Assembly (NCBI GenBank): GCA_009691725.1
Contig: SIAP01000011.1
Coordinates: 1-56,157 of the forward strand
Direction of reading: 5' to 3'
DNA from: Phycisphaerales bacterium
GTDB lineage: Bacteria; Planctomycetota; Phycisphaerae; Phycisphaerales; SM1A02
DNA length: 56,157 nucleotides
Part shown: piece by piece, positions 26,561 to 43,964 of the stretch
Layout: each line of letters begins with the position of its first letter
Position numbering within the stretch: the stretch's first letter is position 1
Notes under the pieces: model-generated
The model's input: the letters and a program-made list of their open reading frames with translations, nothing else
Told to the model about the DNA's origin: nothing
Database searches by the model: none
Translations under genes and position numbers: made by a program

Positions 26561-27717
26561 CGCGCGCGAGCCGCCTCGCTCGGACGCTTTGCATCGCGAC
26601 ATCGCTAGGTCTTTCATGCGGAGTGGTTGCAGCGTGCAAGGGACCATCGAGTTCTGGCGTTGAAGCCCGCAAGGAGGCAAAGGCCAGATTCGATCGGGTG
26701 GGTGCCGGTGTTGCGATGGATCAAGCAGCGCAATCGCTTGAATCTGGGCAGTTCAGCGACGCGCTCAAGCACATCGACAAGGTCGTGGCAGTCCTTCCAG
26801 ACGATCCGCGAGCGCGCCTCCTCCGTGGTCGAATCGTTCTGGAGATGGGCAGGCTTGAATCAGCAGCGGCCGACTTCCAGAGTGCGTCAGCGCTCAATCC
26901 GAGTTGTGACGAGTGCCTCTACTACCTAGGTGTGGTCTTCCAACGATGGGGTCGCGATGAAGAGGCGCTCGCCCACTACGCCGCAGCACTCGCCATCGAG
27001 CCGACCAATTCGCACTATCTCTTGAGCGAAGCAGAATCGTTTCTCGCACTGGGACGCGTCGAAGAGGCAAAGGTGTTGTTGGATGATGCTGCCTGTCACT
27101 TTGAATTCAGTTCGGCGCTTGCTCACCTCCGTGCGGAGATTGCCGCCGCAGAGGGTGACGACGCACAGGCGATGCACTTCATGGAACTCGCAGTGACACT
27201 CGCAGCAGATCCATCGCTCTATCAGGAAGATGTTGCAGTCTTTGCATTCAAGGCGCGAGAGTGGGACCGCTGTCTCAACGCACTGGCCACCTTGCCGCCA
27301 TCGGTCGCGAGTCGCAATGACTTGCTTCGCATGCGTGCGCGGTGCCTGGTCCTCTCGGGACGGGCGAAGGAAGCGCGCGATCTGTTGGTGCAATACGAGA
27401 TTGACAGCGCTTTGAGGCAGGAGGGCATCACAGTCGAACAGGATCTCACACTGGGCTACTGCGCCTGGATTGCCGGAGATGTGCTCCGCGCAGAAACCTG
27501 CGCGGCTCGGATGATCGCACGCAATCCAACAATGTGCGATGGATACCTCTTGAAAGGGCTCACTTTGGAGCATGCTGGGGATCTCCAAGGGGCGACGGTG
27601 GCACTCGCAAAGGCTTGCGAATTGGACCCGAGTCGAAAGCTCGCCCGCGACTTACTTATGCGCGCGCAGGCCGCCAAGATAGCAATTGATGGCATCGCGC
27701 TGACAACAAGCCGGTAG
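26557..27717 (+). CDS. TPR lipoprotein, possible secretin pilotin/assembly factor
   Basis: A 386-residue lipoprotein: signal peptide with lipobox VVAA|C at residue 27, then five or more tetratricopeptide repeats from about residue 50 onward (for example SGQFSDALKHIDKVVAVLPD, MGRLESAAADFQSASALNPS, WGRDEEALAHYAAALAIEP). Its start overlaps the secretin stop (ATGA). In T4P systems a TPR lipoprotein (PilF/PilW) helps the secretin assemble; the translational coupling here supports a similar role, though this protein is longer than PilF and the function is inferred. Confidence 0.85.
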   Translation: MTRASRLARTLCIATSLGLSCGVVAACKGPSSSGVEARKEAKARFDRVGAGVAMDQAAQSLESGQFSDALKHIDKVVAVLPDDPRARLLRGRIVLEMGRLESAAADFQSASALNPSCDECLYYLGVVFQRWGRDEEALAHYAAALAIEPTNSHYLLSEAESFLALGRVEEAKVLLDDAACHFEFSSALAHLRAEIAAAEGDDAQAMHFMELAVTLAADPSLYQEDVAVFAFKAREWDRCLNALATLPPSVASRNDLLRMRARCLVLSGRAKEARDLLVQYEIDSALRQEGITVEQDLTLGYCAWIAGDVLRAETCAARMIARNPTMCDGYLLKGLTLEHAGDLQGATVALAKACELDPSRKLARDLLMRAQAAKIAIDGIALTTSR

Positions 27718-27739
27718 GGTCCTCAATGAGGCAGCGATG

Positions 27740-27856
27740 GACGCAGGCGGGGACGCAGGCGGGGACGCAGGCGGGGACGCAGGCGGGGACGCAGGCGGGG
27801 ACGCAGGCGGGGACGCAGGCGGGGACGCAGGCGGGGACGCAGGCGGGGACGCAGGG
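27740..27856. repeat. 12-bp minisatellite (unit GACGCAGGCGGG)
   Basis: Nine perfect head-to-tail copies of GACGCAGGCGGG (27740-27847) followed by a partial tenth (GACGCAGGG). It lies 22 bp after the TPR lipoprotein stop and 76 bp before the next gene. A forward frame through it reads repeated Asp-Ala-Gly-Gly and a reverse frame repeated Cys-Val-Pro-Ala; neither is a convincing gene. The perfect copies imply recent slippage or amplification. Confidence 0.97.
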
Positions 27857-27932
27857 CCGGGACTCGCAATTCGCTGGAGTTATTTTGCATTGATAGGGGG
27901 CTGGGTTATCTTGATGATCAAGGAGTCCCCCA

Positions 27933-28979
27933 ATGTTCACCAAGATTTCTATCGTGGCAGCGTTCGCATTTGTTCCATCCGCATTGAGCCAAATCGTCGT
28001 GGATGGAGTGAATCTGCAGGAGTACGCAACTCCCATCAGCGTGCAGAACGCGACGACTGGGTTTGGCGACTCGACACTGGGAGCCGTCGACGCCGCCAAC
28101 GGTTCCGAACTCGACAACTGCTTTGCGACGATCGACGGTGGCGTGCTCTACCTCTTCTTCGGCGGCAATCTGGAAAGCAACTTCAATAAGTTTGAACTCT
28201 TCATCGACAGCGGGGTCGGCGGACAGAATGCGTTGCGCGGCGACAATGCGAATGTGGACTTCAATGGTCTCAACCGCCTTGGCGAGAGTGCCGTCGGCGT
28301 CGGCGACGGCCTTCAGTTTGACGCCTGCTTTTCTGCGAATTTTTATCTCACGACAACATGCGGAGGCACCCCAACTGCCCTGTACGCAAACATTGCGCAG
28401 GTGCTGACTGAAGGCGGCGGAATCGGGGCGTACATCGGCAGCGGCGCGCCCGGAACGGTCGCGATCGACAATGCGAAGTACGGGGTCAAGGTCGCTCTAA
28501 ACAACTCGAATGTCCTTGGGGTCGGCGCGAACGGCGGCAGCACAGAGGGCGCGAGCATTGTCGGAACAGGAATCGAAGTCGCTATTCCACTCTCGCTCAT
28601 GGGATATGACGCTGCGACGCAGCAGAACATCAAGGTCTGTGCGATGATCAACGGTGGCGGTCACGATTGGCTATCGAATCAGTTCATTGGTGGACTCGGT
28701 GCGGGGAGCGCAAACCTTGCCGAACCGCGTCTGGTCAGCCTCGCGACGGTCGCCGAGAACCAATACGCGGTGATCGTGGTGGATGCAGCAGAGCCCGACT
28801 GTCCTGTCGTTCCGCCAGCCTGCCCAGCCGACCTCAATGGTGACGGCTTCGTTGATGCCTCAGATCTTGCAGCGGTCCTCGGCGGATGGGGCACGGAATC
28901 TGGCGACACCAACGGGGATCTCACCACGGATGCTGCGGATCTCGCGGCTGTGTTGAGCGCATGGGGTACATGCGTGTGA
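27933..28979 (+). CDS. Secreted protein with C-terminal dockerin-like repeats
   Basis: A 348-residue exported protein: signal peptide residues 1-19 (cleavage after SALSQ-like region), then a beta-rich domain of unknown family (about 20-285) with many Gly/Asn turns and YLFFGGNLESN. Its C-terminus has two dockerin-type Ca loops, DLNGDGFVDASDL and DTNGDLTTDAADL, each followed by a helix ending in WG, and flanked by Cys (CPAD and WGTC). A Shine-Dalgarno AAGGAG (27920-27925) fixes the start. It is the nearest gene downstream of the secretin/TPR operon, separated by the minisatellite, so is a candidate secretion cargo (inference). Confidence 0.8.
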   Translation: MFTKISIVAAFAFVPSALSQIVVDGVNLQEYATPISVQNATTGFGDSTLGAVDAANGSELDNCFATIDGGVLYLFFGGNLESNFNKFELFIDSGVGGQNALRGDNANVDFNGLNRLGESAVGVGDGLQFDACFSANFYLTTTCGGTPTALYANIAQVLTEGGGIGAYIGSGAPGTVAIDNAKYGVKVALNNSNVLGVGANGGSTEGASIVGTGIEVAIPLSLMGYDAATQQNIKVCAMINGGGHDWLSNQFIGGLGAGSANLAEPRLVSLATVAENQYAVIVVDAAEPDCPVVPPACPADLNGDGFVDASDLAAVLGGWGTESGDTNGDLTTDAADLAAVLSAWGTCV

Positions 28980-29766: not shown

Positions 29767-29835
29767 AGACTTCGACTTCGATCAATTGCTCTCAAAAAGA
29801 GGCATTTCTCTTCGGTGGGAGTATTCTTCCTCGAC

Positions 29836-31884
29836 ATGAATCGGATGTGTCGATCCAACCTTGGGACTCTGTGTGCCGCCCTCATGTTGGTGGTGGCTTC
29901 AGCATCATTCGCTCAGGTGTCAACGCGACCGGGCATCGGTGCTATCCCATTTACATCAGCCACCGGAAATGGCACGACCTTTCGCACGTTCGCGCCATTC
30001 GCTGACAGCGTTGCGGTCGCGGGGACTTTCAACTTCTGGAGCACGACGAGCCGACCGCTCTTCAGCGAGGGAAATGGATATTGGTCCTTCGATGTTCCTC
30101 TCGCGCAAGCCGGCGCGCAGTACAAGTTTCATGTCCGGCGCGGAACGCAAGCGCTCTGGAGGAATGATCCCCGCGCGCGCGATCTGGTGAGTTCCGTTGG
30201 CAATTCGGTTGTCTACGACCCAAACACATTCGTCTGGCAAACGCAGAACTTTTCGATTCCATCGTGGGACAAGTTAGTGATGTACGAGATGCATGTTGGA
30301 ACGTTCGGAACATCGACGAGTGGTGCGACGCCATCGACGCTCGACCAGTGCGTTGCGAAGTTGGATCACCTCGTTGAACTTGGAGTGAATGTCATCGCGC
30401 TGATGCCCACCTGCGAGTTCCCAACGGATCGTTCATGGGGATACAACGCCTCGTACCTCTTTTCGGTCGAGAGCGCGTACGGGAACCCAAATGACTTGAA
30501 GGAGTTTGTTGATGCGGCGCACTCGCGGGGGATCGCCGTCACCACCGATGTCGTCTTCAACCACATCGGTCCCAGCGACATGGACATGTGGCAATTTGAC
30601 GGATGGTCACAAAACAACCTCGGTGGCATCTTCTTCTACAACGATTACCGTGCCTACACCCCATGGGGCGATACGCGACCGGACTTTGGTCGGGGGGAAG
30701 TGCGCACCTTTCTCCGCGACAACGCGCTGATGTGGCTGAACGAGTTTCGCATGGACGGTCTGCGGATTGACGGAACCAAGTACATCCGCCGTGTGGGGCA
30801 AGATGGTCCAGATATTCCCGATGGATGGTCGCTCCTGCAGTGGATCAACAATGACATTGATGCGATCTCGCCGCAGAAACTCATCGTCGCCGAGGACATG
30901 GATGTCAACCACTTCATGACCAAGACAACTGGGGCGGGCGGTGCGGGGTTCGACAGCCAATGGGATTCCAGTTTTTATCCGCCCATTCGAACTGCTGCAA
31001 TCACGCCCAATGACGCCGATCGGAACATGTTCTCGGTGCGGGATGCGATCGCGTTTTCTTACAACGGTTCCATGCAGCAGCGCGTGATTTATTCAGAGAG
31101 CCATGACGAAGTTGCCAACGGCAAACAGCGTGTCCCAGAGGAAATCTCGCCAGGCAACGCTGGCTCGTGGTATGCGCGCAAACGGTCGACACTCGCCGCT
31201 GCTATCGTGATGAGTTCGCCCGGGATTCCATTGCTGTTCCAAGGGCAAGAGTTCCTCGAAGACGAGTGGTTCCGAGATGATGTCCCGCTCGATTGGTCGC
31301 GCAAGATCACCTACGCAGGCATTTTCAAGCTCTATCAGGATCTCATCGCGCTGCGCACGAACGCCACCGGCGTTTCGCGCGGGCTTTCTGGATTCAGCAC
31401 GAATGTCTTTCATGTGAATAACACGGACAAGGTCATCGCCTTTCACCGCTGGCAGAATGGCGGCGAACTCGACGACACGATCATCATTGCGAATTTCTCC
31501 GCTACCCCCAAGTTGAATTACAGGATCGGTGTTCCCAGGGCGGGATTGTGGAAGTGCAGATTCAATAGTGACTGGACGGGGTATTCTTCGGACTACGCGA
31601 ACACGCTTTGCGTGGCGACCTCGACCGATTCAGCACCGTGGGACGGCCTCGCCCAGAGTGCGTTGGTCTCGGTCGGTGCGTACTCGGTGATCATGTTTTC
31701 ACAGGGGGATCCGCCGCCGACCTATTCCCCGCAAGATCTGAATCACGATGGCGTGGTCAACGCCGCAGACCTCACGGTGCTTCTTTCGGCATGGGGAACC
31801 GCTGGGAGTGCCGCGGACATTGACGGAGACGGAATCGTCGCAGGAAGCGATTTGGCGAGCATGCTCAGCGCTTGGACTGGCTGA
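29836..31884 (+). CDS. Secreted GH13 enzyme (branching-enzyme/trehalohydrolase-like) with dockerin tail
   Basis: Exported alpha-glucan-acting enzyme of about 682 residues from ATG 29836. Signal peptide to about residue 25, then a CBM48-like beta domain (about 35-110, [20 protein letters not shown]). The GH13 barrel (about 135-560) has the catalytic triad in place: nucleophile D312 (GLRIDGTKY), acid/base E353 (IVAEDMD) and D424 (SHDEV). The barrel resembles GlgB/TreZ-type members ([22 protein letters not shown]). The C-terminal domain ends with two dockerin-like Ca loops ([26 protein letters not shown]) without the flanking Cys seen elsewhere. The product specificity cannot be settled by reading. 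Convergent overlap of 20 bp with the ABC ATPase gene. Confidence 0.88.
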
Positions 31885-33082
31885 TCGCGTTGCCATCACT
31901 CGTGAAGAGATGCGCCGCGCTGGCATCCAATTGAAGTCCACACGAGTCACCCTCTCGAATCGAAGTCAATTGATCCATCCCACAGCGCGCTGTCACGAGC
32001 CGCTCACTCGGCAGGCGGACAACAACATCCGCCAATGAGCCAATGCGCTCAATGGCGACAACTTGCCCCGACAGATGGTGTTCGCTGCGACCCTCAACGA
32101 CTGAGCCGCCGGCAACCAGTTTCAATCGATCTGGGCGAATTCCCAGCTTGACAGGAAGAGTGACGGCGAGCGTGTACGCGGGGCTCGCGAGCGGTCCGAT
32201 GGCATCCGCATCCCATCGCGCAGGGGAGAGGGGCAGTGCAAAGTGGGAGCAGCGAAAACTCAGCGCCCCTCGACCATCTCGAATGAGTTCGCCATCGATC
32301 ATGTTCATCGGAGGCGTTCCAATGAAACTCGCGACGAATCGATTGATGGGTCGGTCGTAAATCTCTGCGGGCGATCCGATCTGCTGCACGACACCACTGC
32401 GCATCACCACGATCCGATCCGCAAGGCTCATCGCCTCCTCCTGGTCGTGCGTGACGTAGACCATGGTTGCATTCAAGGTGCGATGCAAGATTCGAAGTTC
32501 AGTGCGCATCTGACCACGCAAACTCGCGTCGAGATTTGAAAGTGGTTCGTCGAAGAGAAAGACTGCGGGATTGCGCACGAGAGCGCGTCCCACGGCGACG
32601 CGCTGTCGCTGTCCACCCGAGAGTTCGCGCGGTTGGCGTTCGAGCAGCGTTTCAATTCCCAGTGTGACCGCTGCGGACTCCACGCGATCACGCAAGGACG
32701 CCGCCTCCCCGCGCCGCTGCGCTCGGTATGTACCGTTCCACAGGCTCTTCCAGCGACTCTTGTATGCACGCCTCTGCTGGAGACCGAATGCGAGGTTTTG
32801 GCGAACAGTCAAATGCGGGTAGAGCGCGTAGTTCTGAAAGACCATCGCAATGTCACGGTCCTTGGGAGGAACATCGTTCACCGCTCGATCACCGATCGAA
32901 ATCGTTCCACCAGAAAGTTCTTCCAGTCCTGCGATCATGCGCAGCGTTGTGCTCTTGCCGCACCCAGATGGTCCAACGAGCACGACGAATTCACCATCCG
33001 CAATCGCGAGATCCACCGACTCCACCGCCCGCACCGTTCCTCCATACGACTTCGACACTGCGCGCAGTTGAACTGTTGCCAT
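31865..33082 (-). CDS. ABC sugar importer ATPase (MalK/UgpC/MsmK type)
   Basis: The 405-residue cytoplasmic energising subunit for CUT1 importers. Walker [11 protein letters not shown]-loop ([11 protein letters not shown]), signature [15 protein letters not shown], Walker [14 protein letters not shown] and H-loop ([10 protein letters not shown]) are all present; residues beyond about 260 form the TOBE/OB regulatory domain of MalK relatives. A 20-residue basic/aromatic insertion ([18 protein letters not shown] and flanks) interrupts the helical segment after the Q-loop compared with usual MalK. It is separated from the permease genes by the gene at 33132 on the other strand, so it is not in one operon with them. 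Confidence 0.93.
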
Positions 33083-33131: not shown

Positions 33132-34523
33132 ATGTTCATAACACATCTGCTCATCACGGTCCTTTCGATCATCGGGCAATCTCCAGCTCAGCCAGCAGCA
33201 CCAGCCCTCGTCCCTGTGCGCGGACCAGCGACTGCCGCGAGCCAGGAGACTGCGCCGGATGCTGGCCCCGTGGATGCAGTTCCACCCTCGTCGAAGTGTG
33301 CCAAGGATCGTCGGCTTGCGCGCACATTGCGCTACGCGGTTCTGCCTCTCAATGGTGCTGTTGGCGATTCGTCCGTCATCGACACCCTCAAGGAGTTTCT
33401 TCGGCGGAACTCCGCGAACACTCAGGTCAATGCGCTCGTCCTGCAATTCAATCTCACTGGCGGCGATCATGATGCGACCATCGCCTTGGCAGATCAAATT
33501 GTCGAGGTGCGCAAGCGTATGCCCGTGATTGGGGTTTTTGGTTCATGCGTTGGCGCGGGGGCGATTCTGCCGATGGTCTGCGACTATCTCATCGTTTTGA
33601 ATCCCAGTACCGAGGGAATGATCTTGGAATGGTCGCCGGGCTGTGATGTTGCAGACAATGACATCTCCACTGAAGTTGGCAAGTGCTTCGATGTGATCGT
33701 TTCGCGATCCCCAGACCGTGCGTACATGCGCGCTGTCGCCAAAGCGTTGCTCGATCCAACGGTGGATCTCTTCCTGTGGCGGGGAAGCGATGGGTGTGCA
33801 GAAGCGGCGCAATCGGCGCCTGCTGGAACGACCGCGGTGCAACTCTCCAGCGGCAAGGATGCGTTGGCAGGAATGACGGGCGCGCAACTCGTTGCGTCGG
33901 GGCTTGCGCTGGGATGTTCTGGAACACTCGATGGCGTTGGCGTGGTGCTCGGAGTCGAAAAGTGGATCGCGCAACCGCAGGTGGTGGAGAAGATCCTCGC
34001 GCAAGTTCAGGAGCAGCACGCGAAGGAATACGCGCAGCACACGCTGGCACTCAAAACGGGTTTCACCGCAGTCAATCAGGCGCGTGCCTTGGTGGGTGGC
34101 CTCATCGAAGCCGAAGCGAATGCGCGTGCCGCCGATCCAAGGAAGCAGTCCTATCGCAGAACGTACTCGCGGAACTGGAGTTCGACCACGCAGAATACGA
34201 CACAGGGGAGCAGTTGGCAGTTCACTCGTGTCACTTCCAACGCGTGGCAAACGAATTGCCGGTTCGCCATCACCGCGTGGGAGGGCGCGCTGCAGATGTA
34301 TGAACAGGCGAGCGCCGCGACCACGCAGGCGAGAGCCATTGCGGCAACGCTCGACAGGAGCGCGCTGATGAAGAGCGACCCAGAGTTCAACGCAGAGGTG
34401 GTGGTACTGCAGAGTGAAGTCGATGCACTGATGGCGCAAGCTCCGGCGTTGACCGTCAAGGGTGACAACGCAAAACAGTCGCTGCTCTGGTTGCGCAACA
34501 ACCGCATGAATCCAGCGATGTGA
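33132..34523 (+). CDS. Secreted S49/NfeD-like (ClpP-class) fold protein, catalytic Ser apparently missing
   Basis: A 463-residue exported protein: signal peptide residues 1-18, Ala/Pro-rich linker, then an alpha/beta core (about 75-180) typical of membrane-associated ClpP-class proteases: VLPLNGAVGDSSVIDTLKEF, NALVLQFNLTGGDHDATIAL, MPVIGVFGSCVGAGAILPMV. By hand alignment to NfeD-type ASAGA, the catalytic Ser falls on Gly141, so activity is doubtful. A helical, partly coiled C-terminal region (about 290-463) follows, with a Ser/Thr-rich patch. AGGAG (33123-33127) precedes ATG 33132. Lies inside the sugar-import locus; link unknown. Confidence 0.6.
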   Translation: MFITHLLITVLSIIGQSPAQPAAPALVPVRGPATAASQETAPDAGPVDAVPPSSKCAKDRRLARTLRYAVLPLNGAVGDSSVIDTLKEFLRRNSANTQVNALVLQFNLTGGDHDATIALADQIVEVRKRMPVIGVFGSCVGAGAILPMVCDYLIVLNPSTEGMILEWSPGCDVADNDISTEVGKCFDVIVSRSPDRAYMRAVAKALLDPTVDLFLWRGSDGCAEAAQSAPAGTTAVQLSSGKDALAGMTGAQLVASGLALGCSGTLDGVGVVLGVEKWIAQPQVVEKILAQVQEQHAKEYAQHTLALKTGFTAVNQARALVGGLIEAEANARAADPRKQSYRRTYSRNWSSTTQNTTQGSSWQFTRVTSNAWQTNCRFAITAWEGALQMYEQASAATTQARAIAATLDRSALMKSDPEFNAEVVVLQSEVDALMAQAPALTVKGDNAKQSLLWLRNNRMNPAM

Positions 34524-34581: not shown

Positions 34582-35445
34582 TCATCCCTTCACGGCGCCG
34601 CGGGCGAGTCCTTCAATGAAGTGTCGCTGTGCCGCAACGAACAACAGAATGCACGGCACCATCGTCACAAGGCTCGCAGCCATCAGCAGATGGACATCTT
34701 CGAGTCCTCCATACTGATTCCGAAAGGAGTTGAGCGCCACCGCGAGCGTCGCCTGCTCATCGCTGTGGAGATAGACGAGTGGTCCCATGAAGTCGTTCCA
34801 GACATAGATGAATGTAAAAACCGCGCAGATTGCCGTGACGGGCTTGCACAGCGGCAGAACGATTCGCCACCAGATGCCGAGCAGCGTGTACCCATCGACT
34901 CGAGCTGCCTCGATAAGGCTCTCGGGAATCTGCGCGATGAACTGGCGGTACATGAAAATGAAGAATGCATTACCGAAAAATGCGGGGACGATCAACGGCA
35001 ACAGTGAGTCGATCCATCCAAGATTTCTGAAGAGGATGAAGAGCGGAATGAGCGTCACCTGACTGGGCAGCATCATCGTGCCGAGCATGGTGATGAAGAG
35101 TGCGCGACTTCCACGAAAGCGAATGCGCGCGAATGCAAATCCCACCACACTGCTCGAGAGCACCGTGCCGATGACCACAAGCGTGGTCGTCACGATGGAG
35201 TTCGCAAGCGCATTGAGGAATCCATGCCACGGCACGGATCCCATCTCACGGAGCGCGTCTGGGTAGTTCACCCACTGCGGCGAATGCGGCCACAGTGCGA
35301 TCTCGCCCGCTCCGCTCACTGCGGCTCCCGCACGTTCTGGCGTTTCTAAACTCACCACCAACATCCACCAGAGCGGGAGCAACATGATCGTTGCACCACC
35401 AAGCAAGAGCGCGTACTGCATCGTTCGCCAGAGTGTGCGACTCAT
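34582..35445 (-). CDS. ABC sugar importer permease, MalG type
   Basis: A 287-residue inner-membrane subunit of a CUT1 sugar importer with six hydrophobic helices. The conserved EAA loop that docks the ATPase reads EAARVDGYTLLGIWWRIVLP (about residues 180-199). N-terminal TM about 11-30; MLPSQVTLIPLFILF and AFFGNAFFIFMYRQF are typical MalG stretches. Its start overlaps the stop of the fused substrate-binding/permease gene by ATGA, so both are made from one transcript; the ATPase is encoded separately at 31865-33082. Confidence 0.93.
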   Translation of the reverse strand: MSRTLWRTMQYALLLGGATIMLLPLWWMLVVSLETPERAGAAVSGAGEIALWPHSPQWVNYPDALREMGSVPWHGFLNALANSIVTTTLVVIGTVLSSSVVGFAFARIRFRGSRALFITMLGTMMLPSQVTLIPLFILFRNLGWIDSLLPLIVPAFFGNAFFIFMYRQFIAQIPESLIEAARVDGYTLLGIWWRIVLPLCKPVTAICAVFTFIYVWNDFMGPLVYLHSDEQATLAVALNSFRNQYGGLEDVHLLMAASLVTMVPCILLFVAAQRHFIEGLARGAVKG

Positions 35446-37826
35446 GTCGTGACCCCTTCGCTATGGACCCATCGATTGCTCACGCGCATCACCAAGATGG
35501 TGAGCGACAGCACGATCAGCAACAGAATCCACGCCATCGCGCTCGCATACCCCATTTCGTAATACTCGAACCCCTGGTTGTAGAGGTACAGCACAAAGAA
35601 TCGAGTGAGATCGCCTGGCTCGCCGCCGGTCATCACAAACGCTTGTGTGAAAATCTGAAAGCTCGCGATGATCGACATGATCACATTGAAGAGGATGATC
35701 GGCGAGAGCATCGGCAGCGTGACTGACCAGAATTGACGACGGCGACTCGCGCCATCGATCGCTGCAGCCTCGTACAGTTCGATGGGAATCTGCTGTAGTC
35801 CCGCCAGGTAGACGATCATGGTTGCCCCCATGAACCAGAGGCTCATCAGCGCGAAGGCGGGGGCTCCCCACACTTCGGCATCCTTGCCAAACCACTCCGG
35901 CGCAGTCATCCCCACTTGCGAAAGCAGTGGCTGTATCGCAGAGTTCAGCAGTCCACCGTCGGCATCGAAGATCCATCTCCACAGGACCGCCACGCCGACG
36001 CCCGCAAGCACACTCGGCAGATACCACGCTGCGCGAAAGAGATGGATGCCGCGCACCTTCGCGTTCATCAGAAGTGCGGCGAGCAACGCGAGGACTTGCC
36101 CAGCGGGGACCGCGATGATGGCGTAGTAGGCGGTGACAGCAAGGCTTGATCGGAAGCGATGATCGAACGCGATCAACTGCTCGAAGTTTGCGGCGCCGGC
36201 GAAATCGGCAGAACTGAGGGGCGACACACCCTTCCAGCGTGCAAACGCCAACGCAAGACTCATGCCGACGGGGAAGATCATGAAGAGTGCGAAACCAATC
36301 ATCCACGGCGACGCCAGACACAGACCAGCGCGTTCCTCTTGTCGCTGTCGACGGCTGATCGATCCGCCACGCAACGCAAGCACTGCAATTGCAAGGGCGC
36401 AGGAGCACAAGACCAGCGCGGTCCATGCGAGCGCCTCCCACGCCATTGGAGACATTGTCTGATCGTGGATAGGACTCTGCCGCTGCACCAGCCAGTCGCG
36501 CTCGAAGTTTGCAATCGCCTGTTGCAACGGCAGGTCTGCAGTTTTCAGTCCCTGGTCGAGACGCGATCCCAAGAGCCCCTCAAACTGCGGATCCGATGGC
36601 CAGTCCACCACGCGTGCATACTCGGCGGCATCGAGAAACCCCTGATCATTGTTTGGCAACTGCGTTGGATCCGAAAACGCTTCGCTCTCTGCGGCTTGGC
36701 GAATCGTTGGAATGGCGAGTCCCAGTTTCGCGAGCGCCCGTTGGTTTTGTTCACCAGCGAGAAATCGCACGAGTTCCCACGCTTCCTCAGGATGATTGCT
36801 CTGGCTCGAGATCGACCACGACACCGTCAGCACGATGTTGCTCTGCACGGAACCGCGCGGCAGTGGAGCGAAATCCCAGTCGAATCCACCCTCTGCGTGC
36901 GAAGGAATCTTGCGGTAACTCGGCACGACCCATCGCCCGAATGGTCCAGCCATCCCAATCTTTCCACTCAGAAAGACGCTCGATCCCGTGGCGATCTTGC
37001 TCTTGCCACTAGTCAACGCGCCAGTCTCGTCGTGACGCCAACTGCGAAGTCGGTCGAGCGCTGTGACAACATCGGCGTCAGATGTTCGCACAGAGTCAAA
37101 GGTCGAATCCGCCACATCAAGCCCCTCGCTCATCAGATAGGCGCGCACCATCGAAGGCCATGTGACGAACTCCGCACCTGTGCAGCCCGGCAACTTTCCA
37201 ATCGCCCTCGCATCGGCGATGAACTCGTCCCATGTCCAGTCTGCGCTGGGCGGTGAAAGCCCTGCGCGCTTGAAGAGGTCCTTGTTCCAGTAAAACCCAA
37301 CAGTCGTGAAGTCCTTGGGGATTCCATAGAGCGCACCAGATCCGCTGCGCGCTCCGTCGTACCGAAACGCAGCGACCGTTGCAGGATAAAAATCCGCAAG
37401 ATCCAGCCGATTTGCTGCGTCCAACCGTGCGTCCTGGGAGAGTCGTTCATCGAGCGGCGCAAGCAAACCAAGAGAGACAAATGCTGGAATCCGTTCCGCT
37501 CCGACATAGAAGACATCAGGCGGGTCGCCGGATGCCATCATTGTCTGAAGTTTGGTGTAGAAACTTCCAGCGTCTCCGGGGTTGATGCGGCGTACGCGAA
37601 GCGACGGATGATCGCGCTCGAATGATCGCAAAGCATCTTCGACGATCTGATCTTCTTCTTGACCACCCTCGCCCGACCAGTGCATGACAACGAGTTCCGT
37701 GCGGGGGTCATTCCACCCCATTCTGCCTGCTTCGCGCACCGTCACCGTTGCAAATGCCCACAGCACGACAGCGCACATGAGCGCGATCGATGCCCTCGAA
37801 AGCCATGGGGTGACACTTCGCATCAT
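35442..37826 (-). CDS. Fusion of ABC solute-binding protein and MalF-type permease
   Basis: About 794 residues from ATG 37826. An N-terminal TM anchor (about 12-29) without lipobox leads into a full CUT1-type extracellular solute-binding domain (about 40-450; MHWSGEGGQEEDQIVEDALR, TKLQTMMASGDPPDVFYVGA, GIPKDFTTVGFYWNKDLFKR, GPFGRWVVPSYRK). A second hydrophobic stretch (about 473-495) and a cytoplasmic basic segment join it to a complete MalF-like permease (about 515-790) with EAA loop EAAAIDGASRRRQFWSVTLP. In ordinary systems these are two genes. The single polypeptide holds the binding protein next to the channel. No frameshift or stop lies at the junction. The upstream divergent gap to the GH13 gene is 67 bp. 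Confidence 0.9.
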   Translation of the reverse strand: MMRSVTPWLSRASIALMCAVVLWAFATVTVREAGRMGWNDPRTELVVMHWSGEGGQEEDQIVEDALRSFERDHPSLRVRRINPGDAGSFYTKLQTMMASGDPPDVFYVGAERIPAFVSLGLLAPLDERLSQDARLDAANRLDLADFYPATVAAFRYDGARSGSGALYGIPKDFTTVGFYWNKDLFKRAGLSPPSADWTWDEFIADARAIGKLPGCTGAEFVTWPSMVRAYLMSEGLDVADSTFDSVRTSDADVVTALDRLRSWRHDETGALTSGKSKIATGSSVFLSGKIGMAGPFGRWVVPSYRKIPSHAEGGFDWDFAPLPRGSVQSNIVLTVSWSISSQSNHPEEAWELVRFLAGEQNQRALAKLGLAIPTIRQAAESEAFSDPTQLPNNDQGFLDAAEYARVVDWPSDPQFEGLLGSRLDQGLKTADLPLQQAIANFERDWLVQRQSPIHDQTMSPMAWEALAWTALVLCSCALAIAVLALRGGSISRRQRQEERAGLCLASPWMIGFALFMIFPVGMSLALAFARWKGVSPLSSADFAGAANFEQLIAFDHRFRSSLAVTAYYAIIAVPAGQVLALLAALLMNAKVRGIHLFRAAWYLPSVLAGVGVAVLWRWIFDADGGLLNSAIQPLLSQVGMTAPEWFGKDAEVWGAPAFALMSLWFMGATMIVYLAGLQQIPIELYEAAAIDGASRRRQFWSVTLPMLSPIILFNVIMSIIASFQIFTQAFVMTGGEPGDLTRFFVLYLYNQGFEYYEMGYASAMAWILLLIVLSLTILVMRVSNRWVHSEGVTT

Positions 37827-37893
37827 GGGATGGCACGGAGGATAGTTTGGCAATCGAGAACCACGGCACAGTCCGACCTACCATCGCCAAGCC

Positions 37894-40335
37894 ATGCGAT
37901 TCTCGGCACCGCTGCCTGTTCTGTTGCTCGCGATTGCCAGCGTCCATCATTTTGCTGCGGGAATGCAAGATCCGCCGTGGCCGCCACGGGAATCAAAGAT
38001 CGTCAGCACGATTTCTTCGGATCACGTTGCGGCGCCATCAAGCGTCGAAGTGCGCGCTCGTGGAGATGGCGCGTTCGATTGCCTCTTCAGTTTCCATCCC
38101 GCCTCTGCTGTGATCACCGTGCATCTTGCAGGGGACTTCAACGGATGGAGTCCTTCCGCGACGGGGATGAGCCGTGGGGACGATGGCGTGTGGCGCGTCT
38201 CAGTCCCGCTCGCCGCTGGTGAGCGGGCGTACAAGTTTGTCGTCGACGGCAAGCACTGGCTCAGCGATTCAAGAAATCCCCTCACCACCGACGACGGGCA
38301 TGGCGGTGCAAACAGCATGCTGCGTCTCGGTGCTCAAGCAAATCTCGCTGGGGTTCGTGCGCGGAAGAACGATGGACAGATCGAAGGTGGGGGAGTCCTC
38401 CACGATCCATCGAACGCGACATGTGTGCAACTGCTGCCAGATGGGCGGGTGCTGCTGCGCGTGCGAACGCTTCGCGATGACATCGTTGCAGTCGAGTTCG
38501 CAGCACAGGGACGACCGCCCGTGCGGATGAAGGACTCGGGAGCTGACGAACACTTCTCGTGGTGGGAGGTGTCGGTGTCGCAACCAACGGGAGAACTTCC
38601 CTATACCTTCCTGTTCTCTGATGGAACGACACGATTGAGCGACGCGCGCATCTACTCACTGGTTCACTCGCACGACGCGCTGTTTTCAACACCAGCGTGG
38701 GCGAAGAATGCGATTTGGTATCAGATCATGCTCGAACGATTTCGAGATGGTGACCCTGCGAACAATCCAGATCCCTGTCGTCCCTGGACGAGCGGGTGGT
38801 ACACGCCCAGTGCGTGGGAAACGCAATCTGGGCAAACTTTTTTCAACTGGTATGTCTTCTCGCGCCACTATGGCGGCGACCTTGCTGGACTGCGTGATCG
38901 CCTGCCATATCTCAAGGATCTCGGCGTCAATGCGATCTATCTGAATCCGATTTTTCAAGCCACCACACACCACAAGTACAACGCGACAAGTTTCATTCAT
39001 GTCGACGAACATTTCGGCGTGCGCGGCGACTACGCCAAGGCGGAGGCCATCGAGGATGTGCGCGATCCGAAAACATGGACCTGGACTCCAACCGACCTGC
39101 TCTTCCTTGAGGTGATCAAAGAAGCGAAACAACTGGGAATCCGCATCATCTTGGATGGCGTGTTCAATCATGTTGGGACTGCCCACCCCGCGTTTCGTGA
39201 TCTGCAGGCGCGTGGACAGGCGAGCCCCTATCGCGATTGGTTCAGCGTTCGCTCGTGGGATCCATTCGAGTACGACGGCTGGGCGGGCTTCACGGAACTT
39301 CCCGTCTTTCGCAAGAACGACCGAGGATTCTCCTGCGACGAGGTGAAGCAGCACATCTTCGATGTCACTCGGCGGTGGATGGATCCCAACGGTGACGGCG
39401 ACCCGAGCGACGGGATTGATGGATGGCGACTCGATGTTCCGAATGAAGTGGCGATGCCATTCTGGTACGAGTGGCGATCACTCGTGAAGTCGATCAATCC
39501 AGAGGCGTACATCGTTGGTGAAATCTGGCGTCGGGCAGATCAATGGCTCGATGGTCGATCGTTCGATGCCGTCATGAACTACCCGTTCGCAGAAACTCTG
39601 TTGCAGTGGATCCGCGACAAGAACCGAAAAATCACTGCAAGCGAACTGGATCGCAGGCTCGCAGAGTTGCGGCATGCATATCCAGCGCAGGCGACCTATG
39701 TGTTGCAGAATCTCGTCGACAGCCATGACACTGATCGACTTGTCAGCAAGTTGCGCCATCCCGATTCTGAGTACGACAAGGGCAATCGTGAGCAAGAAAA
39801 CCCCCAGTATCAAGGGGGAAAACCATCGCTGGCGGAGTATCAACGCGCGCGATTGATCGCCCTCATTCAGATGGTGTATGTCGGTGCACCGATGATCTAC
39901 TACGGTGACGAAGTCGGCATGTGGGGCGCAGACGATCCGACGAATCGCAAACCAATGCTCTGGAAGGATCTCGAACCCTACGACGGACCAGACGACAACA
40001 CCGTCGATGAGATGCACTACCAGTGGTACAAGCGCGTCATCGCATTGCGCAGGGTGCATCCTGCGCTCCGTGAGGGCACGTTCGAGACTCTGCTGTGCGA
40101 CGATGATCAGGATGTATGGATCTTCCTGCGCACCCTCGGCAGCGACACACTGCTCGTGGCGATCAATGCGTCGGAGAAGGAAGCGCGGTTGGATCTGGTG
40201 CAGACGACCCTCGGCGCGCCCACAGGTCGTTGGCGCACCATCTTTGGAGGTGAAGGCGCAGCGGTCGCCGACGACGCCTTCCCGAGAATTTCCGTTGGCG
40301 CACTCTCGGGACGAGTCTGGATTCTCGAACGATGA
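37894..40335 (+). CDS. Exported GH13 alpha-glucanase (neopullulanase/cyclomaltodextrinase-like)
   Basis: An 813-residue enzyme with signal peptide (1-22), two N-terminal immunoglobulin-like/CBM48-type domains (about 55-145, AGDFNGWSPSATGMSRGDDG, and 165-270), and a GH13 barrel (about 275-740). Catalytic triad D514 (GWRLDVPNE), E543 (IVGEIWRR) and D612 (DSHDTDRL); also NPIFQATTHHKYN and GVFNHVG, as in the neopullulanase group. It should cleave alpha-glucans outside the cytoplasm. Starts divergently from the SBP-permease gene; the stop overlaps malQ by ATGA, so it is co-translated with it. Confidence 0.9.
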   Translation: MRFSAPLPVLLLAIASVHHFAAGMQDPPWPPRESKIVSTISSDHVAAPSSVEVRARGDGAFDCLFSFHPASAVITVHLAGDFNGWSPSATGMSRGDDGVWRVSVPLAAGERAYKFVVDGKHWLSDSRNPLTTDDGHGGANSMLRLGAQANLAGVRARKNDGQIEGGGVLHDPSNATCVQLLPDGRVLLRVRTLRDDIVAVEFAAQGRPPVRMKDSGADEHFSWWEVSVSQPTGELPYTFLFSDGTTRLSDARIYSLVHSHDALFSTPAWAKNAIWYQIMLERFRDGDPANNPDPCRPWTSGWYTPSAWETQSGQTFFNWYVFSRHYGGDLAGLRDRLPYLKDLGVNAIYLNPIFQATTHHKYNATSFIHVDEHFGVRGDYAKAEAIEDVRDPKTWTWTPTDLLFLEVIKEAKQLGIRIILDGVFNHVGTAHPAFRDLQARGQASPYRDWFSVRSWDPFEYDGWAGFTELPVFRKNDRGFSCDEVKQHIFDVTRRWMDPNGDGDPSDGIDGWRLDVPNEVAMPFWYEWRSLVKSINPEAYIVGEIWRRADQWLDGRSFDAVMNYPFAETLLQWIRDKNRKITASELDRRLAELRHAYPAQATYVLQNLVDSHDTDRLVSKLRHPDSEYDKGNREQENPQYQGGKPSLAEYQRARLIALIQMVYVGAPMIYYGDEVGMWGADDPTNRKPMLWKDLEPYDGPDDNTVDEMHYQWYKRVIALRRVHPALREGTFETLLCDDDQDVWIFLRTLGSDTLLVAINASEKEARLDLVQTTLGAPTGRWRTIFGGEGAAVADDAFPRISVGALSGRVWILER

Positions 40336-41792
40336 AGGCACGGATCAACCCGTTGATCTCGCACCGCAGTGCGGGAGTGCTCTGTCACCTGTCGAGTCTG
40401 CGTGGTCCATGCGCCATTGGCGATCTCGGTCTCTGCGCACGCGAGTTCATCGATTGGTGTCGTACGAGCGGCGCGACATGGTGGCAGATGCTGCCTGTTG
40501 GTCCCATCGGGCCGGGGGACTCCCCGTATGCGAGCACATCGAGTTTTGCAGGCGAGCCGCTCTTCATTTCACTCGATGGACTGCGCGAGCAAGGGCTGCT
40601 TTCGGCGAGTGACGTGCGGCAATCGATGTTGGCTGCGAAGAAGTTCAGCCGTGGTCGGCTTGATCGGAAAGGATCACGTGCTCGGACCGACTACGACGCT
40701 GCGCGCCGTGCAAAGGAGCCTGCGTTTCTGCGCGCCTTTGAGTCGTTTCGGGCTGACGGTGGATTCGCAACCGCGGACTACGCCGCATTCGCTCGGCGCG
40801 AAAAGTTCTGGCTTTCAGGTTGGAGCGCATTCAATCGCGACTCAATTGGCTACCACGCATTTCTCCAGTTCACCTTCGACACGCAGTGGCGCGCTCTTCG
40901 ATCGCACGCGAAGCGACAGGGGATCAAACTCCTCGGCGATCTTCCAATCTTCGTCACGCTGGACAGCGCGGATGTCGCCGAGCATCCAGAACTCTTTCGA
41001 CTCGACAGCAGACTCCGTCCAGAAGTCCTCACTGGAGTTCCGCCCGACTGTTTCTCCCGCGATGGTCAACTCTGGGGGCATCCTCATTACCGTTGGTCCG
41101 CCCACCGCAGCGAAAAGTTTCGCTGGTGGACGGCTCGCATTGCCGCAGCGCTTCGCAGATTCGATGGTGTTCGCATCGATCATTTCGTGGGGTTTCAACA
41201 CGCATACGAAATCCCAGCGGGTGCCACGAACGCACGCCGAGGGGTGTGGAAGCCCCAAGCCGGCCGTGAGGTGTTGGATGCAGCGCTCGCACTTCGGATG
41301 CTGCCGCTCCTTGCCGAGGATCTCGGAGCGGTGACGCCGAAACTCATTGCGCTTCGAAAGAGGTTCAATCTTCCTGGGATGCACCTGCTCCATCACTCAT
41401 TCGGGAGCGCGGATGCGGTGAACTCGATCGTCACATGCAGCGCGGACACAGTCATCTATCCGGGCACGCACGACAACGACACATCGCGTGGATGGTTCTC
41501 GAAGCTCGACAGCGCGTCACGGCGGCGCTTCCTCGCACTCGCCGGCGACAGTGCCGCGCTTCATCCGCACGATGCGATGACTCGCATCGCCTATAGGTCG
41601 AACGCCCAACTCGCAGTGGTTGCAGTACAAGATCTCTTGGGACTCGATCGGTCTGCGCGCATGAACCTCCCGGGCACCGCAACGAACAACTGGCGATGGC
41701 GTCTGGGAAGCGATTGGCAGCGAATCCGTTTGAAACGAGCCAGACAATTGCACACTCTGGCCAAGATCACGGGTCGCAGCAGGCGCGCATGA
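40332..41792 (+). CDS. malQ: 4-alpha-glucanotransferase (amylomaltase)
   Basis: GH77 cytoplasmic enzyme that disproportionates maltodextrins, releasing glucose and longer chains. 486 residues with the usual openings RSAGVLCHLSSLRGPCAIGD and WWQMLPVGPIGPGDSPYAS. Catalytic centre: GVRIDHFVGF (nucleophile Asp), LAEDLGAVT (acid/base Glu) and YPGTHDNDTSRGWF (transition-state Asp). Overlaps the upstream GH13 gene by ATGA and lies 42 bp before glgP; together they form the maltodextrin-degrading operon. Confidence 0.95.
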   Translation: MKARINPLISHRSAGVLCHLSSLRGPCAIGDLGLCAREFIDWCRTSGATWWQMLPVGPIGPGDSPYASTSSFAGEPLFISLDGLREQGLLSASDVRQSMLAAKKFSRGRLDRKGSRARTDYDAARRAKEPAFLRAFESFRADGGFATADYAAFARREKFWLSGWSAFNRDSIGYHAFLQFTFDTQWRALRSHAKRQGIKLLGDLPIFVTLDSADVAEHPELFRLDSRLRPEVLTGVPPDCFSRDGQLWGHPHYRWSAHRSEKFRWWTARIAAALRRFDGVRIDHFVGFQHAYEIPAGATNARRGVWKPQAGREVLDAALALRMLPLLAEDLGAVTPKLIALRKRFNLPGMHLLHHSFGSADAVNSIVTCSADTVIYPGTHDNDTSRGWFSKLDSASRRRFLALAGDSAALHPHDAMTRIAYRSNAQLAVVAVQDLLGLDRSARMNLPGTATNNWRWRLGSDWQRIRLKRARQLHTLAKITGRSRRA

Positions 41793-41834: not shown

Positions 41835-43964
41835 ATGCCACACGCTCCACGATTTCCATCCATCGCCGTCGACGACCTCGTGAGCCATCTGCGCGACCTC
41901 GCGTCGAATGTGTGGTGGTCATGGAACGAAGAGGGATGGTCAGTCTTCCAAACGCTTGACCCCACGGAGTGGCGCGCGACAAATCACTCTCCCCTTGGAA
42001 CACTTGAGCGCACGACGGCCGCGCGAATTGCTGCGCTTGCCTGCGATCCCATCTTCGTGAAGCGTGTGTATGACGGGCTCGCAGCACGCGCCGCATACCT
42101 TGGCGAGCGCGCATGGTTTCAACGAGGCGCTGGCGCACATCGCGCTGGGTTCCGAGTTGGATACTTCTGTAGCGAGTACGGCCTTCACGAATCCATCCAG
42201 CAGTACGCCGGAGGATTGGGCATTCTTGCGGGCGATCATCTCAAGAGCGCGTCCGATTTGGGGATTCCGCTCGTGGCCATGGGACTCGCCTACCGCCACG
42301 GTTACTACATCCAGCAACTTGCACGAGATGGTTCGACGCAAGTGCTCTATCCAGAATACGACTTCGCACGATTTGGCATCGAAGACACGCGCATCACCAT
42401 CGGCTGCCCGATTGGCTCGCGCATCGTGACTGCGCGGGTGCTTCGCCTGTGGGTTGGTCGCGTTCCGCTCTACCTGCTCGACACCGATCTGAAAGCCAAC
42501 GCACCCGATGATCGAAAACTCACCGAGGGGCTCTACAAGGGTGACCCGCTCCTTCGGCTGCGACAGCAGGTGCTGCTCGGTGTCGGCGGGATGATGGCAT
42601 TGAAAGCACTTGGCGAGAAAGTCACAGTGTTGCATCTCAATGAGGGGCACGCGGCATTCGCTGCTCTCCAACGAGCGGTCGACTTGCATTCGACGGGGCG
42701 TCCAATCCAGGAATCGTTCGATGTCGTTCGCCGCGCAACAGTCTTCACAACGCATACGCCTGTTCCAGCTGGGCACGATCGGTACGACCCAAAGATGGTC
42801 TGCGAAGAACTCGCGACTCTCGCCGCACGCGCAGGACTTTCCCAAACCGAACTCGCAGATCTAGGACGAATCAACGCGGGCGATGAAGAGGAAACATTCT
42901 GCATGACCGTGCTCGCTCTGCGACTTTCACAGCGCGTCAATGGCGTTTCGCAATTGCACGGGGAAGTGAGCAGAGACATGTGGAAGAAGTTCTACAGGGT
43001 CGGTGCTGCGAAAGTTCCCATTGGTTCGATTACCAATGGCGTCCATGTGAAGACATGGATCGATCCAGACGCAGAGCGCTTCTGGCAAAACGAGATCGCA
43101 CTGCGTCTGGGCAAGCAGGCTCCAAAGGCGACTGGATGGAGCCATGCGAAGGACGCAGATCCTGCGCGATTCTGGGAACTTCGAGAGCGGTTACGAAGCA
43201 GGTTGGTGCACTTTGTCCGTGATCGAATGACCATGCAATGCAAGCGGCGCGGCGAGGGGCAGTCTGCAGTCGCCTCCGCATACTCGTTGCTCGACGATGG
43301 CGTCCTCACGATTGGCTTCGCTCGGCGCTTCGCCACATACAAGCGTGCACCGCTGATCTTTCATGATCCAAAGCGGCTGGCCCAGATTCTGTCCAGCTCA
43401 ACGCGACCCGTTCAAATCGTTTTCGCTGGCAAGGCGCATCCTCGCGACGAAGCTGGTCAGGCATTCGCGCAGCGTGTTTTCTCGATGACCCGCGATCCCA
43501 TGTTTGCTGGTCGCGTGGCGTTCGTCGAGGAGTACGACATGCACGTCGGTCGGATGCTCACCTCTGGTGCAGATGTGTGGCTGAACACTCCAACGCGTCC
43601 GTACGAGGCGAGCGGCACCAGTGGAATGAAGCCGCCGCTTCACGGAGGGCTCAATCTCTCGATTCTCGATGGGTGGTGGCCCGAGGCAGCGGATGGCATC
43701 AACGGGTGGAGCATCGGTTCGACACAGACGCTTGCCGATGCGCCGTCACAGGACGCTTCGGATGTCGAGAGCCTCTATCGATTGCTTGAAGAATCGGTGG
43801 TTCCGCAGTTTTACGAACGCGACGCCAATGGTCTTCCACAGGGTTGGATCGCCCGCGCCCTCCACAGTGCTGCGACCGTCCCACCCGAATTCAACTCCCA
43901 TCGGATGGTTGCGCAGTACACGCGCAAGGCCTATTTGCCAGCGCATTCCATTCGCGGCAGCTGA
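41835..43964 (+). CDS. glgP: Alpha-glucan (glycogen/maltodextrin) phosphorylase, short type
   Basis: GT35 enzyme that releases glucose-1-phosphate from alpha-1,4-glucans; cytoplasmic, PLP-dependent. 709 residues, the shorter alpha-glucan phosphorylase class with an N-terminal DUF3417-like part (NVWWSWNEEGWSVFQTLDP). VGYFCSEYGLHESIQQYAGG, NEGHAAFAAL, THTPVPAGHDRY and GSITNGVH match. The PLP lysine is K599 in EASGTSGMKPPLHGG. Follows malQ by 42 bp. Supplies the final step of the degradative pathway. Confidence 0.95.
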   Translation: MPHAPRFPSIAVDDLVSHLRDLASNVWWSWNEEGWSVFQTLDPTEWRATNHSPLGTLERTTAARIAALACDPIFVKRVYDGLAARAAYLGERAWFQRGAGAHRAGFRVGYFCSEYGLHESIQQYAGGLGILAGDHLKSASDLGIPLVAMGLAYRHGYYIQQLARDGSTQVLYPEYDFARFGIEDTRITIGCPIGSRIVTARVLRLWVGRVPLYLLDTDLKANAPDDRKLTEGLYKGDPLLRLRQQVLLGVGGMMALKALGEKVTVLHLNEGHAAFAALQRAVDLHSTGRPIQESFDVVRRATVFTTHTPVPAGHDRYDPKMVCEELATLAARAGLSQTELADLGRINAGDEEETFCMTVLALRLSQRVNGVSQLHGEVSRDMWKKFYRVGAAKVPIGSITNGVHVKTWIDPDAERFWQNEIALRLGKQAPKATGWSHAKDADPARFWELRERLRSRLVHFVRDRMTMQCKRRGEGQSAVASAYSLLDDGVLTIGFARRFATYKRAPLIFHDPKRLAQILSSSTRPVQIVFAGKAHPRDEAGQAFAQRVFSMTRDPMFAGRVAFVEEYDMHVGRMLTSGADVWLNTPTRPYEASGTSGMKPPLHGGLNLSILDGWWPEAADGINGWSIGSTQTLADAPSQDASDVESLYRLLEESVVPQFYERDANGLPQGWIARALHSAATVPPEFNSHRMVAQYTRKAYLPAHSIRGS

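Follow-up and report, generated by a model that had tools for sequence, protein, structure and literature searches.

In the maltose importer of Escherichia coli, MalEFGK2 (PDB 2r6g and later), the substrate-binding protein (SBP), MalE, is a separate soluble protein and the permease MalF has a large P2 loop, and in the mycobacterial trehalose importer, LpqY-SugABC, the SBP LpqY is a separate lipoprotein. Covalent fusions of a binding domain to a transmembrane domain (TMD) are known from the glycine-betaine importer, OpuA, and the amino acid importer, GlnPQ, and the literature notes, in a general way, that an SBP may be joined to its permease (PMC9045158). In the present study, a 56,157-nucleotide stretch of DNA from a Phycisphaerales bacterium (contig SIAP01000011.1 of assembly GCA_009691725.1; the whole stretch is hereafter called the window) was found to carry a gene in which a CUT1 solute-binding domain and a MalF-type permease are parts of one polypeptide, that is, an SBP-TMD fusion. 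We suggest, with a probability of roughly three in four (0.76), that the product of this gene is the large subunit of a CUT1 ATP-binding cassette (ABC) importer, that the importer takes up alpha-glucan oligosaccharides (maltodextrins) and that its SBP is covalently part of the MalF permease. No CUT1 SBP-permease fusion was found in the open-access literature, in a search that left most subscription journals and the InterPro architecture lists outside and does not show absence from print.

The fused gene lies on the minus strand (37826..35442), opens with an ATG at 37826 and runs through 794 open codons to a stop that is included in 35442..37826; the plus-strand translation of the same interval is interrupted by stops, and an in-frame TTG at 37853, upstream of the ATG, would add 9 aa. 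The predicted mass is approximately 87 kDa (at 110 Da per residue). From the N-terminus to the C-terminus, the protein consists of the following parts, all encoded on the minus strand: an N-terminal transmembrane (TM) helix, TM1 (residues 12-30; 37737..37793); a CUT1 solute-binding domain (residues 43-449; 36480..37700); a 12-residue linker (residues 452-463; 36438..36473); a second TM helix, TM2 (residues 463-486 in the structure model; 36369..36440); and a MalF-type permease core (approximately residues 492-783; 35478..36353) with its EAA loop, the ATPase-coupling segment (residues 686-705; 35712..35771). Pfam placed SBP_bac_1 at residues 56-362 (2.6e-36) and BPD_transp_1 at residues 578-782 (5.2e-14) in this one frame, together with matches to SBP_bac_8 and, weakly, SBP_bac_11, and the nearest NCBIfam models of the permease half were UgpA, GlcT and MalF, all far below the cut-offs that name a substrate. 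The EAA loop, which was inspected in the fusion protein alone, was intact (EAAAIDG...LP), and E686, A687, D691, G692 and P705 were unchanged in 24/24 aligned proteins, some of which are near-copies. A malG-type gene starts before the fusion ends, with four bases (35442-35445) common to its ATG and the stop codon of the fusion, and the locus encodes two distinct permease subunits, one MalF-type and one MalG-type, as CUT1 importers do. The preliminary description of the window had read the same interval, with the strand not stated, as one uninterrupted frame, running from a binding domain through a linker helix into a MalF-type permease that has its EAA loop and ending in overlap with a MalG-type gene, and each of these elements was recovered here.

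In a genome assembled in 51 contigs, such a frame might be produced by an assembly error or a missed stop that joins two ordinary genes. A scan of species genomes returned 39 loci, of which L001-L029 were close and L030-L039 more distant. Both domains were present in one frame in 28/29 close loci, including a partial one (L026) and the complete chromosome CP036296 of isolate Pla86 (L014). Moreover, 69/397 sampled genomes of the class had a match to the fusion profile that was free of stops and covered positions 11 to 792 or more of its 795, which is a lower bound as two candidates were scored per genome; in the window's own family, 24/33 sampled genomes had a match, 20 of them at full length. 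No stop lies near residues 450-515 of the window protein, and the homologues do not always carry two genes. The fused frame is therefore real, and neither chance nor assembly error, because 28/29 close loci keep both domains in one frame and the 29th (L029) is cut by a contig end; the artefact explanation is left with a negligible probability. Among the more distant loci, 0/10 had both domains in one frame, six having separate frames and four showing one domain only.

An AlphaFold2 (AF2) model of the whole fusion, made with 24 sequences, had a mean predicted local distance difference test (pLDDT) score of 76.5, with the binding domain mostly above 80 and the permease core less certain, and it showed long helices at residues 2-37 and 463-486 on either side of the binding domain. 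When the whole model was compared with Foldseek, the best match was the cycloalternan-binding Lmo0181 (5f7v), followed by AbnE and several maltose or isomalto-oligosaccharide binders, and the 50 rows listed were solute-binding proteins, mostly sugar-binding and some described as dinucleotide-binding. The fusion thus has the two-lobe, SBP_bac_1-type binding domain of a CUT1 importer, and by its Pfam matches and its mostly sugar-binding solved relatives it is not of the OpuA or GlnPQ SBP families. In sequence searches, the permease half matched SugA and MalF chains, with SugA among the best matches. The model of the permease half gave 15 matches at E <=0.001, all of them maltose-transporter or mycobacterial SugABC chains with TM-scores of 0.33-0.42 by query, and the permease fold appears weakly supported by structure. 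An insert of the size of the P2 loop of E. coli MalF was not seen in the permease half.

The neighbouring genes point to alpha-glucan metabolism. Downstream of the fusion are the MalG-type permease gene (34582..35445, minus strand, 287 aa), with BPD_transp_1 as its only Pfam domain and UgpE, GlcU and MalG as its nearest NCBIfam models, again far below substrate-naming cut-offs, and a MalK/UgpC-type ATPase gene (31865..33082, minus strand, 405 aa; Pfam ABC_tran, OB_MalK and TOBE_2), which provides the separate ATPase with a C-terminal OB/TOBE regulatory domain that belongs to the CUT1 type. On the plus strand, Pfam identified a GH13 alpha-amylase gene with CBM48 (37894..40335), divergent from the fusion, whose product has a signal-like N-terminus by eye that suggests export, followed by genes for a GH77 4-alpha-glucanotransferase (malQ; 40332..41792) and an alpha-glucan phosphorylase (41835..43964). 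Among the 29 close loci, several of which lie on contigs that end too early to tell, malG is 3' of the fusion in 28 (in the exception, L022, the contig ends 98 bases past the gene), the ATPase gene is on the strand of the fusion in 23, a GH13 amylase is upstream in 25 (on the opposite strand in 24 and on the same strand in L025), malQ is present in 20 and the phosphorylase in 15. No binding-protein frame was found outside the fusion in the stretches of L001-L029, and the rest of the genome was searched for the window's own genome alone. In that genome (2.07 Mb, 92.6% complete), SBP_bac_1 had three matches, namely the fusion at 129 bits and two proteins at 33 and 23 bits that match other binding-protein families better, and the fusion profile gave one match among 2 or 3 candidates scored of 8. 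A separate binding-protein gene, which is usual though not strictly defining for CUT1, is absent here, and the locus fits maltodextrin uptake and breakdown without a separate MalE. Since the fusion is followed by malG in most loci, with an alpha-amylase gene diverging from it, maltodextrin is the most likely substrate of the importer.

Hydropathy analysis placed TM segments at residues 12-30 and 465-483, flanking the binding domain, followed by the segments of the permease core. In and beside TM1, W23 is kept in 23/24 and R31 in 24/24 aligned proteins, and the linker (452-463) is without insertion or deletion in 24/24, with an invariant W463. The view that an N-terminal TM anchor takes the place of a lipobox also held: the window protein has no lipobox, and thus none of the lipobox cysteine of lipoprotein-anchored SBPs, and a lipobox-like string occurs in 1/24 aligned proteins. 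Two K/R before TM1 and five K/R in the loop after TM2 fit an N-terminus inside and a TM2 that runs from out to in. TM1 in the window's clade looks uncleaved, and the binding domain may be held in the membrane at both ends. In the topology that we propose, the N-terminus would be inside, TM1 would lead out to a periplasmic binding domain, and the linker and TM2 would lead back in to the permease core.

Several observations weigh against this assignment. The model of residues 452-794 alone was poor (pLDDT 60.8), the closest solved binding-protein sequence is that of AbnE, an arabino-oligosaccharide binder (E 3.3e-31), and the presumed substrate is read from gene neighbours and distant structural matches. 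The flanks of L021, L025 and L028, kilobases long, gave no ATPase match, and those of L020 and L025 contained neither malQ nor a phosphorylase gene; the window genome, with its other importers included, has ten BPD_transp_1 matches. Three K/R directly after TM1 fit the proposed topology poorly. Furthermore, separate parts could arise if the linker were cleaved or if translation began internally, at the ATG of codon 461. With respect to cleavage, 9/24 aligned proteins, including that of the window, have an A-x-A/G/S string at residues 24-26 that might serve as a signal peptidase site, and the N-termini of many Armatimonadota fusions (described below) look by eye like cleavable signal peptides, the window's clade having a longer conserved helix. 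If signal peptidase cut after TM1 and a protease cut the linker, the binding protein would be free or singly anchored, and the fusion would fix equal synthesis only. This processing is considered unlikely, since 15/24 proteins are without a small residue at 26 or A at 24 while W23 and R31 around the site are kept, the fixed linker length and the invariant W463 are unlike a disposable spacer, and TM2 would still tether the domain if TM1 were cut. With respect to internal translation, codon 461 (36444-36446), just before TM2, is ATG or GTG in 23/24 aligned proteins, which could reflect either a preference for a hydrophobic residue or an internal start. Shine-Dalgarno-like strings may be weak or absent in Planctomycetota, and none was found upstream of codon 461 in the aligned proteins (0/24); moreover, the matching residue in other fusion groups is often F, V or L (by eye). 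It is therefore very improbable that the full-length fusion is made together with a shorter permease started at codon 461, which would leave the binding domain on some importers only.

If the SBP is indeed a permanent part of the MalF subunit, the importer would be assembled from the fusion, MalG and a pair of ATPase subunits encoded by the nearby MalK-type gene. With one MalF, each importer would have exactly one binding domain, which short tethers (of 12 residues on the side of the permease) would keep near its dock. This domain would capture oligosaccharides, perhaps ones freed by the neighbouring amylase, and the loaded domain would close, dock on MalF/MalG of its own complex and set off the usual ATP-driven alternating access, while an empty domain would be unable to diffuse away or to be made in excess. 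The docking of an SBP normally stimulates the ATPase, as established for MalE-MalFGK2, and a domain between two TM helices with short connections might also act as a fixed sensor or gate (transceptor), which would bind oligosaccharides and mainly regulate the ATPase instead of delivering substrate. The full two-lobe fold of delivering SBPs is retained, and no other SBP that could deliver in its place was seen in the stretches of the 29 loci; hence, a role confined to sensing appears quite improbable.

A built-in receptor would change the balance between the parts of the importer and may alter its uptake kinetics. The E. coli maltose-binding protein is reported to be in 30-50-fold excess over the translocator (PMC9045158), and the fused design would set this usual large excess of catcher over channel to one to one, giving up the receptor excess and skipping the diffusion step. 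The tether could replace a large pool of free protein because the effective local concentration of the tethered domain of OpuA has been estimated at 4 mM (PMC11065425). In addition, the periplasm of planctomycetes can, according to one description, be variable and greatly enlarged, and imported dextran accumulates in it (PMC5394234); a tether would protect the receptor from dilution in such a compartment. This last rationale is a guess, and Armatimonadota share the architecture.

The putative importer resembles MalEFGK2 in its MalF-type and MalG-type permeases, MalK-type ATPase, CUT1 binding protein and maltodextrin gene neighbours, and differs from it in that the binding domain lies within MalF; it resembles LpqY-SugABC in its permease, and differs from it in having no separate lipoprotein. 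In OpuA, the covalently attached binding domain is joined at the opposite end of the permease from that in the window fusion. Moreover, OpuA is described as a homodimer with two cooperating binding domains (PMC11065425). GlnPQ, whose binding domains are likewise tethered by a short linker to the TMD, of 19 residues in one report (PMC8025302), is also a homodimer and has two binding domains per GlnP and four in all, whereas the window system would have a MalF/MalG pair with one domain on a 12-residue linker. The distinct malG gene after the fusion in 28/29 loci speaks for a heterodimer, in contrast to the homodimeric permeases of the OpuA and GlnPQ kind. Taken together, the tethering is as in GlnPQ and OpuA, and by its domains, permease pair and ATPase the system is of the CUT1 type, probably with one receptor on a heterodimer. 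According to a model of ABC uptake under oligotrophic conditions, affinity is tied to the ratio of binding protein to transporter, and rate to the release and diffusion of the spent bulky protein (PMC8168909). If our reading is true, a natural CUT1 importer fixed at one receptor per transporter would let both statements be tested, and the affinity, rate and cost of fused importers could be set against those of the ordinary split relatives that occur in the same phyla. Such a complex, whose binding domain could not fall off, would also be useful for structural biology.

The architecture is broader than the preliminary description supposed, as diverged fusions are also present in other Planctomycetota, Armatimonadota and Verrucomicrobiota. 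The search covered these three phyla together with Chloroflexota and Bacillota; loci were picked from the listed matches by frame length and not at random, and the best 2 to approximately 6 candidates per genome were scored, so that the counts are minima from which no proportion of fused to split systems is derived. A locus was called fused when one frame held a binding domain and a permease match >100 bits. A long open frame was rejected as proof of fusion, having failed in 2/8 Verrucomicrobiota, 7/7 Chloroflexota and Bacillota and 5/20 loci of one planctomycete batch. A second, diverged fusion family in Planctomycetota (L050-L069) came to light through permease-only matches that lay in frames of 800-980 aa; another batch, drawn from the remainder of this phylum, contained 15/20 loci that were fused (L095-L109) and 5/20 that were not (L110-L114), and all 20 fetched long-frame loci of Armatimonadota (L115-L134) were fused. 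Because the broad binding-domain profile had been built from N-terminal parts of the tested frames and was thus circular, Pfam and a profile from alignment A1 only were added as checks. In the 20 + 15 + 20 long frames, Pfam at E 0.001 found BPD_transp_1 in 55/55 and SBP_bac_1 in 54/55, the remaining frame (L059) having SBP_bac_8 in its place; the SBP_bac_1 match of L067 was just under the curated cut-off (25.4 vs 26 bits). The A1-only profile matched the same frame in 18/20 of L050-L069 (L064 and L067 were missed), 15/15 of L095-L109 and 20/20 of L115-L134, and it placed a binding domain in the permease frame in 0/30 short-frame controls (20 planctomycete, 10 Armatimonadota), of which 27 had the binding protein in another frame of the locus.

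In Verrucomicrobiota, 6/8 long-frame loci were fused, all 6 confirmed by Pfam, and a Victivallales genome provided another fusion (L150) whose BPD_transp_1 match was just under the cut-off. Among 201 Chloroflexota and 199 Bacillota genomes, searched at E 1e-90 with up to five candidates assessed in each genome, 7/7 long-frame candidates were separate genes, in agreement with the earlier statement that the parts of CUT1 importers are usually encoded apart; in one Paenibacillus genome, the permease frames among the matches listed were <400 aa, a single frame of 655 aa apart. Pfam agreed with the unfused call for L110 and L168 and for L111-L114, each of the latter having one domain of the two. 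The frames of L111-L114 are 872-1267 aa long; in L111-L113 the binding domain lies close to the C-terminus and no permease accompanies it, and L114 has a permease without a binding domain; the remainder of these frames had no Pfam match and may be partly non-coding. Across 85 fused rows, a hydrophobic stretch (hydropathy >=1.6) lies between the binding domain and the permease in 82, and a P-x-x-W-like motif opens the inter-domain helix in many groups (not in, for example, L052, L060, L095 and L105-L109); TM1 attains a hydropathy of 1.6 in 73/85, and lipobox-like strings occur in 8/85. For annotation, these results caution against assuming that an SBP and its permease always have genes of their own in these phyla.

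The two halves of the fusion gave different answers about its origin. Permease trees did not reject a single fused clade in the approximately unbiased (AU) test (p-AU 0.20 with 119 rows, 0.36 with 134 rows and 0.13 with 58 rows), and the free permease trees required 7, 9 and 4 state changes, respectively. Binding-domain trees rejected it, with a p-AU of 2e-7 (58 rows) and, under a simpler model, 4e-21 (74 rows); the binding-domain stretches had been cut with the circular broad profile and were hard to align, so that this result needs repeating. Rows left out of the trees as near-copies were L007, L008, L012, L013 and L017, and L026, L027, L029, L031, L033, L036-L049, L070-L074, L110-L114, L150 and L153 were not used; L166 and L168 were absent from the 134-row tree, in which 5/134 rows had no binding domain. 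For the binding-domain sets, the rows to be dropped were chosen after the larger trees had been seen (55/129 for the 74-row set and 71/129 for the 58-row set). Repeated fusion, domain replacement and re-splitting would all be compatible with these trees. We only tentatively propose, as a possibility that may well not hold, that the fusions represent a separate design of ABC importer, derived from at least two binding-protein lineages across Planctomycetota, Armatimonadota and Verrucomicrobiota, in which an asymmetric MalF/MalG pair carries one built-in receptor, anchored at both ends in the window's clade, and the strategy of excess receptor has been abandoned, perhaps owing to the dilution that a soluble receptor would undergo in the large and variable periplasm of planctomycetes.

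Several further features were observed in the fused loci and in the window. In the second fusion family, the malG frames of L060, L062, L063, L065, L066 and L069 (for example, L066:3994-5601) contain an insert of approximately 280 residues before the permease core, and for the four proteins that were scanned (L060, L062, L065 and L066) the insert matched no Pfam family; the malG frames beside the Verrucomicrobiota fusions L155-L158 are also long. In the window, an unrelated gene lies antisense between malG and the ATPase gene (33132..34523, plus strand); it is present in 11/29 loci, the closest relatives, and has a sub-threshold Clp-protease-like match (E 0.15). A second GH13/CBM48 enzyme (29815-31884), encoded convergently with the ATPase gene, has a dockerin-type repeat at its end (Pfam Dockerin_1) and is also found in several related loci. 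Finally, a short tandem repeat at 27656-28189 is read as GGDA repeats in the frames of one strand and as CVPA repeats in those of the other.

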